The notes below the pieces were generated by a model. That model saw nothing but the letters and a program-made list of their open reading frames with translations. It made no database searches and was not told where the DNA came from. This document shows, in pieces, positions 11,268 through 57,692 of a DNA stretch of 58,038 nt. Source of the DNA: Clostridia bacterium (GTDB taxonomy: Bacteria > Bacillota > Clostridia > Christensenellales > CAG-314); the NCBI GenBank assembly GCA_028698585.1, contig JAQVWG010000007.1:1-58038 (forward strand), written 5' to 3'. The stretch's first letter is position 1; each line of letters starts with the position of its first letter. Position numbers and translations under genes: made by a program.

Positions 11268-11804
11268 ATGGCAGGCTTAACTCAGGATAGCACACTTAAT
11301 AAGTTGATTCTATTGTTTATTTTTGACAAGATGGAGATGCCCTTGTCGGAGAACACAATAATAGATCTGTGTAAGAATAAGAACAACTGGATTGAGTATG
11401 TTGACCTCAAAATCGCCCTTGAACAACTGCTAGAAGCCAATTTTGTGTGCAAAATGCCCAACGGCACCGGTGAGCCCTTCTATAACATAACGGTTGAGGG
11501 CAGAGTGTGTCTGGCGCATTTTTTTGTTAGGATACCTTCTTCATCCAGAGAGATGATTAGTAATTATATTAAGAACAGCCGTATGAATTATCGCAGACGG
11601 CAGGAGTATAGTAGCAAGTATGAGAAGTGTGATGACGGAACATATGATGTTACATTATGTATTACTGATTCTATGCAAGTGGTGCTGGAGTTGAAAATGA
11701 ATGTGCCTAACCGTAGCACTGCTAAATACATAGATAAGAACTGGGGCGATAAGGCTGCTAAGGTTTACTCAGCAATATATGATAATCTAGTAGATCAACC
11801 ATAG
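11268..11804 (+). CDS. DUF4364 family protein
   Basis: A 178-residue protein that resembles the DUF4364 family of Clostridia: an N-terminal winged-helix-like part (LNKLILLFIFDKMEMPLSEN, then LKIALEQLLEANFV and an ITVEGRVCL turn) and a C-terminal beta-rich part. Members are thought to act as DNA-binding regulators, but none of this is proven from sequence. ATG follows a purine-rich AGGGGGACT. The last 38 codons or so, the stop and the hairpin behind it are repeated downstream almost three times. The gene itself ends normally at the first copy. Confidence 0.75.
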   Translation: MAGLTQDSTLNKLILLFIFDKMEMPLSENTIIDLCKNKNNWIEYVDLKIALEQLLEANFVCKMPNGTGEPFYNITVEGRVCLAHFFVRIPSSSREMISNYIKNSRMNYRRRQEYSSKYEKCDDGTYDVTLCITDSMQVVLELKMNVPNRSTAKYIDKNWGDKAAKVYSAIYDNLVDQP

Positions 11805-12270
11805 TATTATGATAAACGACTGTTTATAACAGTCGTTTTTACTTATACTCAACCCCGCGCCAGCAGTGAAAATGAATGTGCATAAACGCTAGAGTTGAAA
11901 ATGAATGTGCCTAACCGTAGCACTGCTAAATACATAGATAAGAACTGGGGCGATAAGGCTGCTAAGGTTTACTTGGCAATATATGATAATCTAGTAGATC
12001 AACCATAGTATGATAAATGACTGTTTATAACAGTCGTTTTTACTTATACTCAACCCCGCGCCAGCAGTGAAAATGAATGTGCATAAACGCTAGAGTTGAA
12101 AATGAATGTGCCTAACCGTAGCACTGCTAAATACATAGATAAGAACTGGGGCGATAAGGCTGCTAAGGTTTACTCAGCAATATATGATAATCTAGTAGAT
12201 CAACCATAGTATGATAAATGACTGTTTATAACAGTCGTTTTTACTTATACTCAACCCCGCGCCAGCAGTG
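11691..12270 (+). repeat. Tandem duplication of the DUF4364 gene tail and terminator
   Basis: Units begin at 11691, 11895 and 12096 (steps of 204 and 201 bp); the third is cut short near 12270. Each holds the last 38 or so codons, the stop, the terminator hairpin and a short spacer. Copies are nearly identical: one two-base change (TCAGCA to TTGGCA) in the second copy and a three-base deletion after the stop. A 15-base sequence, TGAAAATGAATGTGC, occurs twice in each unit and flanks the junction. Confidence 0.97.
11814..11841 (+). terminator. Terminator of the DUF4364 gene (first of three copies)
   Basis: AAACGACTG, loop TTTATAA, CAGTCGTTT followed by more T. Two further copies of this hairpin occur in the repeats at about 12016-12042 and 12217-12243, with a G-T wobble in the stem. 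Confidence 0.85.
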
Positions 12271-12391
12271 AGGTCAAATATTGCTTATTTGATAATCTAT
12301 AAGAGTGGGATTGTGTTGTTTAGTTGTGGATACTGTGATAACCCTTATACATAACTGTGGGAGAAACGCTCATACAGAGTGCGGTCATATG

Positions 12392-17882: not shown

Positions 17883-17983
17883 ATATACTGTGATTATTTG
17901 CACACATTTGGCTCCTTGTGGGCCTTATGTGAGCTTTTTTTGTATTGAGTGTTTGCTGGCATTTGTGAGTCAGTTATAACATA

Positions 17984-18810
17984 GGCGAGATATAATGAGC
18001 AATCGAAAAGCTTACGAACAATAGATATCTCAACGAACAATCGAAAGTTTAACAAATATAGAAATCCCAACGAGCACTCGAAAGGCTACTGATTTGCCTA
18101 AATTGAGTGCAGGCGAGATATAACGAACAATCGAAAAGCCGACGAACAATAGATATCTCAACGAACAATCGAAAGTTTAACAAATATAGAAATCCCAACG
18201 AGCACTCGAAAGGCTACTGATTTGCCTAAATTGAGTGCAGGCGAGATATAACGAACAATCGAAAAGCCGACGAACAATAGATATCTCAACGAACAATCGA
18301 AAGGTTAACAAATATAGAAATCCCAACGAACACTCGAAAGGCTACTGATTTGCCTAAACTGAGAGCAGGCGAGATATAATGAGCAATCGAAATGCTTACG
18401 AATAATAGATATCTCAACGAACAATCGAAAGTTTAACAATTAATAGTAAGTTTAACGAATAACCGAAAGGCTACTGATTTGCCTAAACTGAGAGCAGACG
18501 AGATATAACGAGCAATCGAAAAGCTAACGAATAATAGATATCTCAACGAACACTCGAAAGTTTAACAAATATAGAAATCCAAACGAACACTCGAAAGGTT
18601 AACAAATATGAAATCTCAACGAACACTCGAAAGGCTTCTGATTTGCCTAAATTGAGTGCAGACGAGATATAACGAGCAATCGAAAAGCCGACGAATAATA
18701 GATATCTCAACGAACAATCGAAAGGTTAACAATTAATAGTAAGTTTAAAGAATAACCGAAAGGTTGTTGATTTGCCTAAACTGAGAGCAGGCGAGATATA
18801 ACGAGCAATT
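17984..18810 (+). repeat. Tandem array with 128-bp unit and internal sub-repeats
   Basis: Unit starts (GGCGAGATATAA or GACGAGATATAA) fall at 17984, 18112, 18240, 18368, 18497, 18661 and 18790: steps of 128, 128, 128, 129, 164 and 129 bp. Within each unit the motif ACGAACAATCGAAA or a variant occurs about four times, at 19, 19 and 37-bp spacings; the 164-bp unit has one extra sub-repeat. All frames are closed by stops. The first three units are nearly identical, later ones diverge. No parent gene tail is visible, unlike the other arrays in this window. Confidence 0.97.
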
Positions 18811-34985: not shown

Positions 34986-35601
34986 ATTAAGCAAGAAAAC
35001 TACCATTATTATTATATGCCTGATTATTGCAGTTGGCATCGTATTGGATCAACTGACTAAAATGTTCTTCGAGAACTTATTCATTCAGGGCAAACTACCC
35101 ATGTACCTATTTGCTGACGTTGGATTCGAATATAGGTTGAACTACGGTGGGGCATGGAGCATAATGGCTGAGCTAAACAATCGAAACATTATTTTTTTCG
35201 TACTAAACTTACTGGCCTTACCCATATTTATCGTGTTGATGTACATGGGACGCAACAAGAGTCTATTTGGCATATTCGGTTATGCTTCTATTATCTCGGG
35301 TTCGATTGGTAATGCGCTGGATAGGGCACTGGGAGCTGAGACTTTCTTTGATGGTGCAGTTAGAGATTTTCTATCTGTTGGATCATGGTTTCCGGTGTTT
35401 AATGTGGCAGATTGTTTACTTGTATGTGGAACGATAAGCGTATTCCTCGCTCTATTATTCCTAGATGACGACGCACTATTTCGCAATATCAAGAAGAGAG
35501 AAGTTGCAGGAAACTCACCCGATAACAATTCTTCAATCACAATAGAGAGCACGGATAACGGTACGCGCGATACCGCGGACAGTCAAAATAATGGGAAATG
35601 A
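34978..35601 (+). CDS. lspA: Lipoprotein signal peptidase (signal peptidase II)
   Basis: Aspartic peptidase of the inner membrane that removes the signal peptide of prolipoproteins. Four spans and both catalytic aspartates are visible: VRDFL and FNVAD, with LNYGGAWSI and SGSIGNALDR as further motifs. ATG 34978 has GGAGAG seven bases upstream and lies inside the end of the YggS gene. At 207 residues it is about 45 longer than usual because of a hydrophilic C-terminal tail rich in Asn, Ser and Thr, which probably faces the cytoplasm. Confidence 0.93.
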   Translation: MNKLSKKTTIIIICLIIAVGIVLDQLTKMFFENLFIQGKLPMYLFADVGFEYRLNYGGAWSIMAELNNRNIIFFVLNLLALPIFIVLMYMGRNKSLFGIFGYASIISGSIGNALDRALGAETFFDGAVRDFLSVGSWFPVFNVADCLLVCGTISVFLALLFLDDDALFRNIKKREVAGNSPDNNSSITIESTDNGTRDTADSQNNGK

Positions 35602-36526
35602 TAGGTTAATGACACTCAGTTTCGTTGTAGAAGAGGAGCACGCCGGACTTAGATTAGATGTATATTTGAGCACCGTTATGGCTGATTGCTCACGCTCTGC
35701 AGTGGCTAATATGATAGACGAGGGTTTATGCAGAATAGGTGGCAAAGTGGCTAGTAAGTCATCTTATGCCGTTAGAGAGGGGGATAATATTACTCTTGAC
35801 AGAAAAGATGCCATCACACTTGAGGTTCTGCCGCAGAATATCCCTTTAGATATAGTCTATCAAGATTCATATCTGGCAGTGATTAATAAGCAACAAGGGC
35901 TCACCGTTCACCCCGCAAGTGGTATATATGTCAACACGCTAGTCAATGCCTTACTGTATCATATTAAGGACCTCAGCGGAATTAACGGAGTGTTGCGCCC
36001 CGGCATTGTTCATAGGCTAGACAAGGATACTTCAGGATTGATGATGGTTGCTAAATGCGACTCGGCACACATAAGCTTAGCTAATCAAATACAGTCCAAG
36101 CAATGCAGGAGAATATATACCGCGCTACTAGAAGGCGTGGTAAAAGAAGACAGTGGTGTGATAGATAAGCCTATCGGTCGTAGCAAGAATGACAGGAAGA
36201 AGATGACTATCGACTACTCAGGCAGGTCTGCAATAACGCACTATACTGTACTAGAACGATTCGATAAGTACACGCTAGTCAAGTTCGAATTGAAGACGGG
36301 TAGGACACACCAGATACGAGTACATGCTCAATATATGGGGCACCCCGTAGTGGGCGATAAGACCTATGGTTATAAGAATCAAAGGTTCAGCCTAGACGGC
36401 CAACTACTACATGCCAGCGAGATAGAGTTCTTACATCCATCAAACGAGCAACTAATGCATTTTACTGTGCCTTTACCTGATTACTTCGACAAGGTTATCA
36501 ACATATTGAGAAAAGAGAATAAATAG
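35591..36526 (+). CDS. rluD: Pseudouridine synthase, RluA/RluD family
   Basis: Modifies uridines in 23S rRNA; 311 residues. N-terminal S4 RNA-binding domain (about 10-70), then the RluA-type catalytic domain with HRLDKDTSGL, whose aspartate is the nucleophile, and KTGRTHQIRVH. Starts inside the end of lspA (11-base overlap); ATG 35591 or 35609 are possible, neither with an ideal ribosome site. The lspA-rluD order is standard in Bacillota. Which of the three RluA-type specificities it has is not certain. Confidence 0.9.
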   Translation: MGNDRLMTLSFVVEEEHAGLRLDVYLSTVMADCSRSAVANMIDEGLCRIGGKVASKSSYAVREGDNITLDRKDAITLEVLPQNIPLDIVYQDSYLAVINKQQGLTVHPASGIYVNTLVNALLYHIKDLSGINGVLRPGIVHRLDKDTSGLMMVAKCDSAHISLANQIQSKQCRRIYTALLEGVVKEDSGVIDKPIGRSKNDRKKMTIDYSGRSAITHYTVLERFDKYTLVKFELKTGRTHQIRVHAQYMGHPVVGDKTYGYKNQRFSLDGQLLHASEIEFLHPSNEQLMHFTVPLPDYFDKVINILRKENK

Positions 36527-36640: not shown

Positions 36641-37440
36641 TAGAATGTCAACATAGTTAGTGCAAAACCTTATTTTAATGTGAAAGAAGCTCCTTATGTC
36701 GTTGGGTTCTACTATAAGTTTATTGTCAACATGGTTAGTGCAAAACCTTATTTTAATGTAAAGAAGCTCCTTATATGCGTTGGGTCTACTATGAGTATAT
36801 TGTCAACATAGTTAGTGCAAAACCTTATTATAATGTGAAAGAAGCTCCTTATGTCGTTGGGTTCTACTATGAGTATATTGTCAACATAGTTAATGCATAA
36901 CCTTATTTATTGTGATAGTAAATCCATATGCGCGTTGGGTTCTACTACGATAGTGTTGTACTGAGTGTATATCACATAGCCTAGTGGTGAAGCTGGCGGA
37001 TGATTGAGATACTTGCGCTTATTGTCAACATAGTTAGTGCAAAACCTTATTTTAATGTGAAAGAAGCTCCTTATGTCGTTGGGTTCTACTATAAGTTTAT
37101 TGTCAACATGGTTAGTGCAAAACCATATTTTAATGTGAAAGAAGCTCCTTATATGCGTTGGGTTCTACTATGAGTATATTGTCAACATTATATTGTGAAA
37201 GAAGCTCCTTATGTCGTTGGGTTCTACTATGAGTATATTGTCAACATGGTTAGTGCAAAACCATATTTTAATGTGAAAGAAGCTCCTTATGTCGTTGGGT
37301 TCTACTATGAGTATATTGTCAACATTATATTGTGAAAGAAGCTCCTTATGTCGTTGAGTTCTACTATGAGTATATTGTCAACATGGTTAGTGCAAAACCA
37401 TATTTTAATGTGAAAGAAGCTCCTTATGCGCGTTGGGTTC
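36641..37440 (-). repeat. Ten-unit array of the rqcH gene tail and downstream sequence
   Basis: The marker GTCAACAT starts at 36647, 36725, 36802, 36880, 37024, 37102, 37181, 37240, 37318 and 37377: steps of 78, 77, 78, 144, 78, 79, 59, 78 and 59. Each unit carries the reverse complement of the last 12-14 rqcH codons and the sequence just behind the stop; the true gene end is the right-hand unit. The 59-bp units lack about 19 bases. The 144-bp unit contains a longer copy: 36928-37020 matches rqcH 37426-37518, some 31 codons, with few changes. Most copies have lost one base and do not keep the frame. Confidence 0.97.
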
Positions 37441-39108
37441 TACTATGATAGTGTTGTACTGAGTGTATATCACATAGCCCAGTGGTGAGGCTGGCGGACG
37501 ATTGAGATACTTGCGCTTGGTGTAATCTATGACTGTCTTGCCACTATCAGCTGCTTCAGAATAATGTGCAATAATCTCAGCGCATGTAACTAATACTGCA
37601 TCCGGTACGACTCGGCCTTGCGTTAGAATAATTCCGTGCGCTGAGTGTATCTGGTGGGTGTGCAACCATAAATCGTCAGCCTTAGACAACCGCCTTACAA
37701 GTAAATCATTCTGGCAGTTATTCTTACCGACCAGCAGTGTGTAATCACCTACTAGATACTTGAGGGGCTGTGAGGGTCTGTTACTCTTATCTGCAGTTCG
37801 CTTGCCCTTAATTATCCCTTGCGATACCATTTCCTCGTATATCTCTGCCAGTTCATCGTTGGTCTGGCACATTTTGATTGATTGTGCTATACTCTTGACA
37901 TAATCAAGGAAAGCAGTATTCTCCTCTATCAGTTTCGTTACGTGAATAATCGTATTCTTCTGCTTATGATACTTCTTATAATAATCCTGAGCATTCTGTT
38001 GCGCTGTCTTGCCCTTATCAAGCGCTATAGCAATGGTTGGACAGTCAGGTTGATAATAGTTGACTGCATTTAGTGTTGATAAGCCTTTAGGTATGCAGTG
38101 CAGGTTAGCGATAATTAAATCACCCTTGATTCTATTCTCAGTGCAGTCCTGTGCTTCATGCAAATCTTGCATTTGCAGGGCAATCTTCTTCTCTAGCCGT
38201 GCGACGGTATTCTTGATAGTTGTGTTAATAACCTTGGATTTTTGGCAGAATCGCATCGCCCTATCCTTGAGTACATAATAACTCTCATGCGCTTGGTTAA
38301 GCGTATCATAATACTTCTTCTGTCCCTTAACACTCACGTAATCGAATGGATAGACCTCGACGGGAGTGTTATTAACGAACAATATATTAGGGATAGGACG
38401 AGCTATATTAGTTATAAGCAATTCCATTGCCTGCACAACTCTATCTGCGTTGAATGGGCTGTGGTTATTACAATCGATACCGTAGAGCAATTCGCGCACC
38501 GTCTCCTTGGAGATACCGAGTATGTTGTTGGTCAACACTTCATCTATTGGTTGTTGATAATCCGTTACTAATTGTGCGATTCTTGCGCTCTGGTCAATAC
38601 TGACTAGGCCTCTGTCACAAAAGAACTTATACGTTGCGCCCACTAACAGTATGCGTTGTGCATCTATGTTGGTGGGTAAGTGTTTAAGCATGTCAATTAT
38701 TCTGTAGTCCTCATCTGTAAGTATTATATTGGCAGTCTTGCCTGTCAACTCATATATTAAGCGTTTAGTCTGTTTATAGCCCAACTCGTTCTTGGCGTCT
38801 ATAACCAACTCCACGACCCTTTCATACGGCATCTGCTTAATGTCTATTATCTGCGCGTTGGTGAGGTGCTTACGCAAAAGCATACAGAAGTTGGGTGCAA
38901 CTTGTGGATTATCCTTGAATTGAGATGTTAAATGAATACGATTAATTGATGCATTGGCACTAATGAGCAGTCTATAATTGCCCTTGTTATAGATTGATAG
39001 CGTGATTTCGTCCTTCTCGGGTTGCTGTATTTTCGTTATTTTGCCACCGATTAGGACGCTAGATAATTCACTAACAATAATGCTGAGCGACAAAGAATCA
39101 AATGCCAT
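37405..39108 (-). CDS. rqcH: Ribosome quality-control protein RqcH (NEMF/FbpA family)
   Basis: Binds stalled 50S subunits and adds C-terminal alanine tails to nascent chains so that proteases such as ClpXP destroy them. 567 residues: NFACT-N domain (GGKITKIQQPEKDEITLSI, then SANASINRIHLT), HhH and coiled-coil middle, NFACT-R domain with DDLWLHTHQIHSAHGIIL near the end. ATG 39108 follows AAGGTGG by six bases. The gene neighbours tig-clpP-clpX-lon but is divergent from them. Its 3' end is the source of the repeat array behind it. An older name in some species is fibronectin-binding protein. Confidence 0.93.
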   Translation of the reverse strand: MAFDSLSLSIIVSELSSVLIGGKITKIQQPEKDEITLSIYNKGNYRLLISANASINRIHLTSQFKDNPQVAPNFCMLLRKHLTNAQIIDIKQMPYERVVELVIDAKNELGYKQTKRLIYELTGKTANIILTDEDYRIIDMLKHLPTNIDAQRILLVGATYKFFCDRGLVSIDQSARIAQLVTDYQQPIDEVLTNNILGISKETVRELLYGIDCNNHSPFNADRVVQAMELLITNIARPIPNILFVNNTPVEVYPFDYVSVKGQKKYYDTLNQAHESYYVLKDRAMRFCQKSKVINTTIKNTVARLEKKIALQMQDLHEAQDCTENRIKGDLIIANLHCIPKGLSTLNAVNYYQPDCPTIAIALDKGKTAQQNAQDYYKKYHKQKNTIIHVTKLIEENTAFLDYVKSIAQSIKMCQTNDELAEIYEEMVSQGIIKGKRTADKSNRPSQPLKYLVGDYTLLVGKNNCQNDLLVRRLSKADDLWLHTHQIHSAHGIILTQGRVVPDAVLVTCAEIIAHYSEAADSGKTVIDYTKRKYLNRPPASPLGYVIYTQYNTIIVEPNAHKELLSH

Positions 39109-44819: not shown

Positions 44820-45412
44820 TAATCAAAAAAGCGTTTTTTACCTTTTCTAAGGCCAAATATGAGCATTTGCATGGGGATGATATCCCACAGATAGCCATAG
44901 TCGGCAAGAGTAACGTTGGTAAGAGTACGTTTATCAACTTCATTTGTGATAACAAGAAACTAGCAAGAACGAGTAAGTCGCCTGGTCGCACTCGATTGAT
45001 TAATTATTTCCTTGTTAATGACAACTTCTATTTAACTGACTTGCCCGGATACGGATTCGCTAACGTGTCGCAGGAAGAGAAATCCAAGTGGGCAGACATG
45101 ATAGAGGATTACTTAGATAAGGAAGAGAATCTTGTCCACATAATTATGCTTGTAGACATACGACACGAGTTGGGCGTCAACGATAAATTAATGTATAATT
45201 ACATAGTCAGTCGCAATATTCCTTTTACCGTGATTGCCACCAAGAGCGACAAGATATCGAGGAGTCAAGCTCAGAACTCACTTCGCAGTATATCTACTAC
45301 ACTTAAGATTGGATTAAACAACGTTTACGCTGTATCTGCTATCACGCAATACGGCAAGGATAAGGTGCTAGATAGGTTGGAGCAGATACTTACTCCACGG
45401 ACAGACATCTAA
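44816..45412 (+). CDS. engB: Ribosome-biogenesis GTPase EngB (YsxC/YihA)
   Basis: Essential GTPase for late 50S assembly, 198 residues. G1 GKSNVGKST (30-38), G2 region SPGRTRLINYF, G3 DLPGYG, G4 TKSDK and G5 VSAI are all present. ATG overlaps the lon stop (ATGA). The lon-engB pair is the standard order. The last 37 codons, the stop and the terminator are duplicated immediately downstream. Confidence 0.97.
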   Translation: MIIKKAFFTFSKAKYEHLHGDDIPQIAIVGKSNVGKSTFINFICDNKKLARTSKSPGRTRLINYFLVNDNFYLTDLPGYGFANVSQEEKSKWADMIEDYLDKEENLVHIIMLVDIRHELGVNDKLMYNYIVSRNIPFTVIATKSDKISRSQAQNSLRSISTTLKIGLNNVYAVSAITQYGKDKVLDRLEQILTPRTDI

Positions 45413-45655
45413 TTTACGTATTATGCAGAATTGAATCTGTATAGCTCAACTTAACAGTTGGGCTATTTTGTTGCACATTACTTAAGATTGGACTAAACAA
45501 CGTTTACGCTGTATCTGCTATCACGCAATACGGCAAGGATAAGGTGCTAGATAGGTTGGAGCAGATACTTACTCCACGGACAAACATCTAATTTACGTAT
45601 TATGCAGAATTGAATCTGTATAGCTCAACTTAACAGTTGGGCTATTTTGTTGCAC
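45302..45655 (+). repeat. Tandem duplication of the engB tail and terminator
   Basis: 45302-45480 is repeated at 45481-45655 (step 179 bp). The two differ at very few positions (GGATTA to GGACTA, GACAGACAT to GACAAACAT), so the event is recent. The copy begins at an ACTTAAG shared by both junction sides. Confidence 0.97.
45442..45473 (+). terminator. engB terminator (first of two copies)
   Basis: TAGCTCAACT, loop TAAC, AGTTGGGCTA then TTTTGTT. Second copy at 45621-45651. Confidence 0.85.
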
Positions 45656-45702: not shown

Positions 45703-46326
45703 ATGTCATTATGTGATGTGAACAACAACAGTTGTAAAGAGAAGATATGTATAGAGACTCGCAGAGTTTTTGATGCCTGTGTTAAGCAGATAGTCAATCT
45801 GGAGCAGACGATACAGGTTACCGATGTAACGCCTGAAGATCCAGTTGTACCATTGACATTCGTCAGTGGAAGAACTAATAATGTAGAGGCCGAAATTACC
45901 GATTTAGTAGTAGACGTTATATCAACAACTCCACGGTGTGGAAGGGCAAGAGGTAACATCGTTCTGCCTGTCACGGTACATTATACAGATGATAATGACG
46001 TAGCAGGTAGTGGAAGTGCGACTGTTACAATACCATTTGACATAATAGTTAATCTGCCTCAGCCGTCAATCCTACCTTATGAGATTAGGGCAGTTGGTTC
46101 GGGCGTGTTGACTGCCGGCGAGTTTACGGGGACGGAGGTTATTGATGATCAAACATTCTACATATTTGATATCAGTATTTGCGCAACGATAATCATTAAA
46201 GTAATAGTGCTGGTTGATATCGTAATCCCAATATACGGATATGCAGTGCTTCCTCCTTGTACTGAGTACTCGCAGGAGGTCTGTCAAGGTTTCTTCGAAC
46301 TGCCGATATTCCCAAGTAGCGACTAA
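45703..46326 (+). CDS. Conserved clostridial protein, possibly sporulation- or envelope-associated
   Basis: A 207-residue protein from ATG 45703 (GAGAGG about eight bases upstream). It opens with MSLCDVNNNSCKEKICIET followed by RRVFDAC, a cysteine pattern I associate with clostridial proteins of spore or coat-like type. The rest is beta-rich, with long Val/Ile-Thr strands and a hydrophobic stretch (ICATIIIKVIVLVDIVIPI) that looks like a strand rather than a membrane span, then a cysteine-bearing end (PPCTEYSQEVC). No signal peptide. The assignment is tentative; the final nine codons are copied downstream. Confidence 0.5.
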   Translation: MSLCDVNNNSCKEKICIETRRVFDACVKQIVNLEQTIQVTDVTPEDPVVPLTFVSGRTNNVEAEITDLVVDVISTTPRCGRARGNIVLPVTVHYTDDNDVAGSGSATVTIPFDIIVNLPQPSILPYEIRAVGSGVLTAGEFTGTEVIDDQTFYIFDISICATIIIKVIVLVDIVIPIYGYAVLPPCTEYSQEVCQGFFELPIFPSSD

Positions 46327-46580
46327 CCATAATAAATCATCTCAACATCAAGGACTGTCTATTTACACAGACAGTCCTAAATGCGTGTTACCTGACTGGG
46401 TACTCACAGTGACTATGTCGGGTCTACTTCGAACTGCCGATATTCCCAAGTAGCGACTAACCATAATAAATCATCTCAACATCAAGGACTGTCTATTTAC
46501 ACAGACAGTCCTAAATGCGTGTTACCTGACTGGGTACCCACAGTGACTATGTCGGGTCTACTTCGAACTGCCGATATTCT
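46293..46580 (+). repeat. Tandem duplication of the 45.7-kb gene's tail and hairpin
   Basis: CTTCGAACTGCCGATATTC starts at 46293, 46427 and 46561: two full 134-bp units and a 20-base beginning of a third. Each unit has the last nine or ten codons, the stop, the hairpin and spacer. The two full units differ by about one base (TACTCAC/TACCCAC). Confidence 0.97.
46351..46378 (+). terminator. Hairpin behind the 45.7-kb gene (first of two copies)
   Basis: AGGACTGTCT, eight-base loop, AGACAGTCCT, a perfect ten-pair stem, but with no T-tract. Second copy at 46485-46512. Confidence 0.65.
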
Positions 46581-46676
46581 CAAGCAATACACAGCGCAAA
46601 ATTATTACCATGAAATAAGGAATATCCATTAACACAGACAGGAATTAATTCATACCATATTGTACAGGGGAGTGAT

Positions 46677-57521: not shown

Positions 57522-57595
57522 TCAGTGTGGATATGCATGCGGGAAGCACTATATTGACTCAGTGTGGATATGCATGCGGGAAGCACTATATTGAC
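57522..57595 (+). repeat. 37-bp tandem duplication
   Basis: A 37-bp unit beginning TCAGTGTGGATATGCATGC occupies 57522-57558 and again 57559-57595, identical. The 280 bases from ftsW to here hold no recognised feature. Confidence 0.97.
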
Positions 57596-57692
57596 TAGGT
57601 AGGATATACATAAGTATGTTGTAATTGACCGATTAGGATATAAATTAAGGTCGTCAACGGACGACTAGGCAACGGGCAATCATGGCGAGCAT

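Follow-up and report, generated by a model that had tools for sequence, protein, structure and literature searches.

What gave rise to a ten-unit tandem array at the 3′ end of rqcH in a Clostridia bacterium, and do its units serve a function? The array (36646–37448, minus strand) lies on contig JAQVWG010000007.1, in the 58,038-nt stretch of DNA that we analysed as a whole (hereafter, the window). It occupies the gap between two convergent genes. On one side is a rluD-like pseudouridine synthase gene on the plus strand (35591–36526; Pfam PseudoU_synth_2, 1.1e-31; S4, 6.4e-8), whose stop codon is 119 bp from the array, and on the other is rqcH on the minus strand (37405–39108; NFACT family; Pfam NFACT_N, 3.3e-112; NFACT-R_1, 2.1e-10). 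Gene ends at this locus and in the genome-wide census below were taken from a simple open reading frame caller.

Origin and growth of the rqcH array

The anchor TGTCAACAT is found at ten positions, namely 36646, 36724, 36801, 36879, 37023, 37101, 37180, 37239, 37317 and 37376, giving the unit steps of 78, 77, 78, 144, 78, 79, 59, 78 and 59 nt listed in a preliminary description of this DNA. The Tandem Repeats Finder (TRF) score of 633–733 is far above chance, and the head-to-tail direct repeats, with units of 59–79 nt and one 144-nt step, have the form of a minisatellite, whose units measure at least tens of bases. Read on the minus strand, a unit starts at AGTAGAACCC in the rqcH C-terminus, runs through the last 14–15 codons, crosses the stop and adds a spacer of roughly 38 nt. 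The unit next to the gene consists of the rqcH end itself (AGTAGAACCC...TCACATTAA) followed by this spacer, and is the only array copy that rqcH includes. One-base deletions (AACGCGCATAAGG to AACGACATAAGG) have mostly destroyed the frame of the remaining units, except in a single deep copy described below.

Unit alignment supports the proposal that the array arose from the rqcH 3′ end. RqcH homologues across the family stop at the same place as the protein here, which indicates that the rqcH end is ancestral and that the array derives from it. A dispersed repeat family found away from rqcH had been named as the observation that would overturn this origin; a search of the bacterium's own genome returned matches only inside the array. 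Beside rqcH in family relatives, the array was present in 0 of 19, the nearest of which shares 57% protein identity and none of which belongs to the genus of this bacterium, so that across its own genome and the rqcH loci of relatives the array is confined to a single locus. The nearest relative (G003) carries no rqcH array; it has a 63-bp repeat of 2.1 copies (L006, 4537–4665) that, judged from its translation, is where the neighbouring gene, that for trigger factor, ends.

Comparison of the units revealed copying on two scales. Next to the gene, a 137-bp block of two units (59 + 78) is present twice on the minus strand (37156–37291 and 37293–37428) with 1 mismatch in 136 positions; these near-identical copies support the earlier suggestion that a two-unit block was itself duplicated. 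Further out, 36646–36759 and 37023–37136 differ at 1 of 114 positions and end at the same point, TTGACA, and 37023–37136 is followed by rqcH sequence whose start lies 74 nt further into the gene than that of the other units. This deep copy (36907–37020, minus strand) accounts for the 144-nt step: 37020–36947 matches 37518–37445 of the gene, and with its tail the match is continuous over 114 nt with 10 substitutions, keeping both frame and stop (TIVVEPNAHMDLLSQ versus TIIVEPNAHKELLSH). A protein search also recovered it, at 86% identity. The long unit thus does reach deeper into rqcH, by 74 nt; the 93 bp first given for it depends on where the unit is cut. The different start point bears out the claim of at least two events. 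Together with four units the deep copy makes up an outer block of about 377 bp (36646–37022, minus strand) that begins inside rqcH and also appears to have been copied, probably from the inner block as it stood earlier.

Compared with the gene, the deep copy plus its tail unit shows 14 differences in roughly 150 positions, as against 1 in 114 for the outermost unit pairs (exact test, run with 171 positions, p = 0.006). This contrast implies either later homogenisation of the outer units or a block that formed in more than one event. The copies are read directly from the sequence, and their order we infer as follows. Growth would have begun with a tandem duplication of the rqcH end and its 3′ spacer, later copies involving single units, the 137-bp block and the roughly 377-bp block begun 74 nt deeper in rqcH. 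On the simplest reading, the segment duplicated in the last of these would have run from AAGCGC in rqcH as far as the outer edge of an array that was then shorter. Afterwards the inner copy would have acquired the 137-bp block, and one of its unit types would have lost 19 nt; this deletion made a 59-nt form out of a 78-nt unit, and the shortened unit was next copied along with its neighbour.

A genome rich in unrelated arrays

The rqcH array belongs to a set of about 80 comparable arrays in this genome, which the window alone could not show. We sampled 1.21 Mb of the 1.49-Mb genome as stretches, of which about 62 kb reads N, counting arrays with a TRF score of at least 150 and a period of 40–400. 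This census gave 80 arrays (66 per Mb), compared with 12 in 1.46 Mb sampled from ten family relatives (8 per Mb), 5 of the 12 in the relative G008. Per base, arrays are about eight- to tenfold more frequent in this genome than in its array-poor family. This ratio and the coding and positional figures below are indicative, because the relatives' stretches were not randomly drawn and the gene caller is crude. At the level of individual stretches, G008 (L088, L089) and G029 (L090, L091) hold 5 arrays each in 40 kb, mostly with periods of 40–88 bp. With the same simple caller, the coding fraction is 0.78 (about 0.82 without N), compared with 0.82–0.95 in family relatives.

Most arrays lie outside gene interiors, and at gene ends they favour the 3′ side, 26 being at 3′ ends and 6 at 5′ ends. 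Divergent gaps hold 4 arrays where 12.3 are expected from a count per base pair (p = 0.007), a depletion that is not seen in a count per gap (p = 0.24). Units compared among the first 55 arrays were nearly all unrelated, the few related repeats being mainly inside coding genes. The window itself has five further arrays with unrelated units (11684–12271, 17983–18809, 45301–45655, 46293–46584 and 57522–57611); those starting at 11684, 45301 and 46293 likewise span a gene 3′ end.

Some loci have near-identical direct copies of 83–430 bp parted by 7–33 bp of filler mostly unlike either flank (among them L041, 8592–8913; L107, 19064–19453; L118, 9030–9259; and L115, 15013–15889). No filler would be expected from plain slippage or from unequal crossing over; as about ten of the two-copy arrays carry such fillers, we reject the idea that all of them are plain tandem duplications. 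Resemblance to the right-hand flank at p < 0.02 was found for 2 of 10 fillers tested. End joining by Ku was rejected as the source of the filler DNA, there being no Ku in the genome. It is conceivable, if doubtful, that a lineage-specific active process duplicates short 3′-end segments of transcription units, often with 7–33 bp of non-flank filler, laying down unrelated arrays about every 15 kb of which the rqcH array would be one product.

Repair genes, promoters and terminators

Loss of mismatch repair might instead have allowed the rqcH array and the others to accumulate, an explanation that we consider unlikely, although the genome has features that fit it. No mutS1 scores over the cut-off in the assembly. 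Whereas relatives have mutS just upstream of mutL, here the stretch that separates mutL from a miaB-like gene (L116, 7579–8549, equivalent to G000 contig C2, 47579–48549) lacks mutS and holds a 144-bp array of 3.8 copies; the names miaB, mutL and miaA at this locus come from a mutL profile match and from reading the translations. The mutL gene has itself diverged, scoring 268.9 bits as against about 420–550 in most relatives. Assembly completeness is 95%, but with the gap next to mutL itself free of mutS, the gene is unlikely to be absent because a contig is missing. However, two relatives (G002 and G006) with no match to mutS or mutL have only 3 arrays in 466 kb together, and G008, with 5 arrays in 40 kb, has mutS. 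It also counts against this explanation that the main targets of mismatch repair are single-base errors, short slippage and recombination events that join diverged copies. Given the array-poor G002 and G006, mutS loss and arrays are associated in a single genome only, and loss of mismatch repair is insufficient as a sole cause. Among other repair genes, recA, polA and recJ were found; the sbcD-like match is weak, and equally weak in most relatives.

A regulatory role for the units is more improbable still. Each unit would be a minus-strand promoter or source of antisense RNA toward rluD, as the preliminary description had hinted on seeing TTGACA in every one of them. The motif is indeed present on the minus strand in all ten units, and promoter-like sites in the array number 11 against 5.2 expected in shuffled sequence, a comparison in which the repeated units are not independent of one another. 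No per-unit promoter was found, however: a single TTGACA, in the 144-nt unit, has a −10-like partner at 16–18 nt, which leaves this part of the claim unsupported. Other promoter-like pairs are restricted to some units, TTTGCA-16-TATACT being reported in three only. RNA folding of the units is no better than that of shuffled sequence, and a search of Rfam gave no match for the array up to E 1.

There is slightly less still to favour an array that insulates or terminates transcription between the convergent rluD and rqcH. The location would suit such a role and is shared by 14 of the 67 classified intergenic arrays, but no unit has a terminator-like site (a GC stem and then a T run) and only 5 of the 80 arrays do. 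Least credible is an assembly artefact: tandem repeats are a known source of assembly errors, as noted in PMC6868369, but a collapsed or looped assembly could not invent nested substitutions and indels among units, even if the exact unit number may be off.

With no fold, terminator, consistent promoter or Rfam signal, a neutral by-product is most likely, neutrality being judged from these absent signals. The array may nevertheless have a function that leaves no sequence signature, such as spacing rluD and rqcH apart.

Known repeat systems and the place of the array

Mycobacterial interspersed repetitive units (MIRUs) are direct repeats of about 40–100 bp that lie close to gene ends, in some cases across a stop codon, and they form one dispersed family. 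The rqcH array resembles them in position and in overlapping a stop codon, but it has no copies elsewhere in its genome, and in the comparison of the first 55 arrays the others were unrelated to it; we therefore reject a dispersed family of the MIRU type, related copies at several loci not having been found. Closer in form are the Wolbachia VNTR-105 and VNTR-141 (PMC3287509), which are likewise locus-specific and intergenic; some of their units carry internal deletions, and copies have been homogenised. Unlike the rqcH units, however, they have reported hairpins. For arrays made from gene 3′ ends, a search of the literature available to us gave no closer precedent.

At the scale of the genome, the nearest likeness is to the intergenic tandem repeats of Ehrlichia ruminantium (described by Collins et al. 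2005 and by Frutos et al. 2006, both as cited in PMC10710844, PMC7343930 and PMC3287509). Both genomes have many arrays, mostly non-coding, with periods around 100–140 bp, and a lowered coding fraction. Repeat coverage is given as 0.38% in E. coli, 1.6% in Wolbachia wMel and 6.3% in E. ruminantium (PMC3287509), compared with 2.6% here under the same TRF settings. The lineages differ, and active copy-number change is reported for E. ruminantium, whereas here one genome was read. Raised array formation or retention in our genome may parallel the E. ruminantium report.

We conclude, with a probability of roughly 80%, that the rqcH array is a lineage-specific, probably neutral minisatellite that grew as sequence was duplicated locally in tandem and blocks were copied, in a genome where more arrays than usual form or are retained. 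Because it is one of about 80, a genome-wide cause is likely, which we take to be that short tandem duplications form at a raised rate or are only weakly removed; they would be tolerated chiefly in intergenic DNA and at the 3′ ends of genes. On its own the array is an ordinary kind of element, and it is more interesting within the genome-wide population. That population is a natural case for asking whether array birth follows transcription ends or arrays merely escape selection there, and for asking whether the loss of repair genes plays a part.
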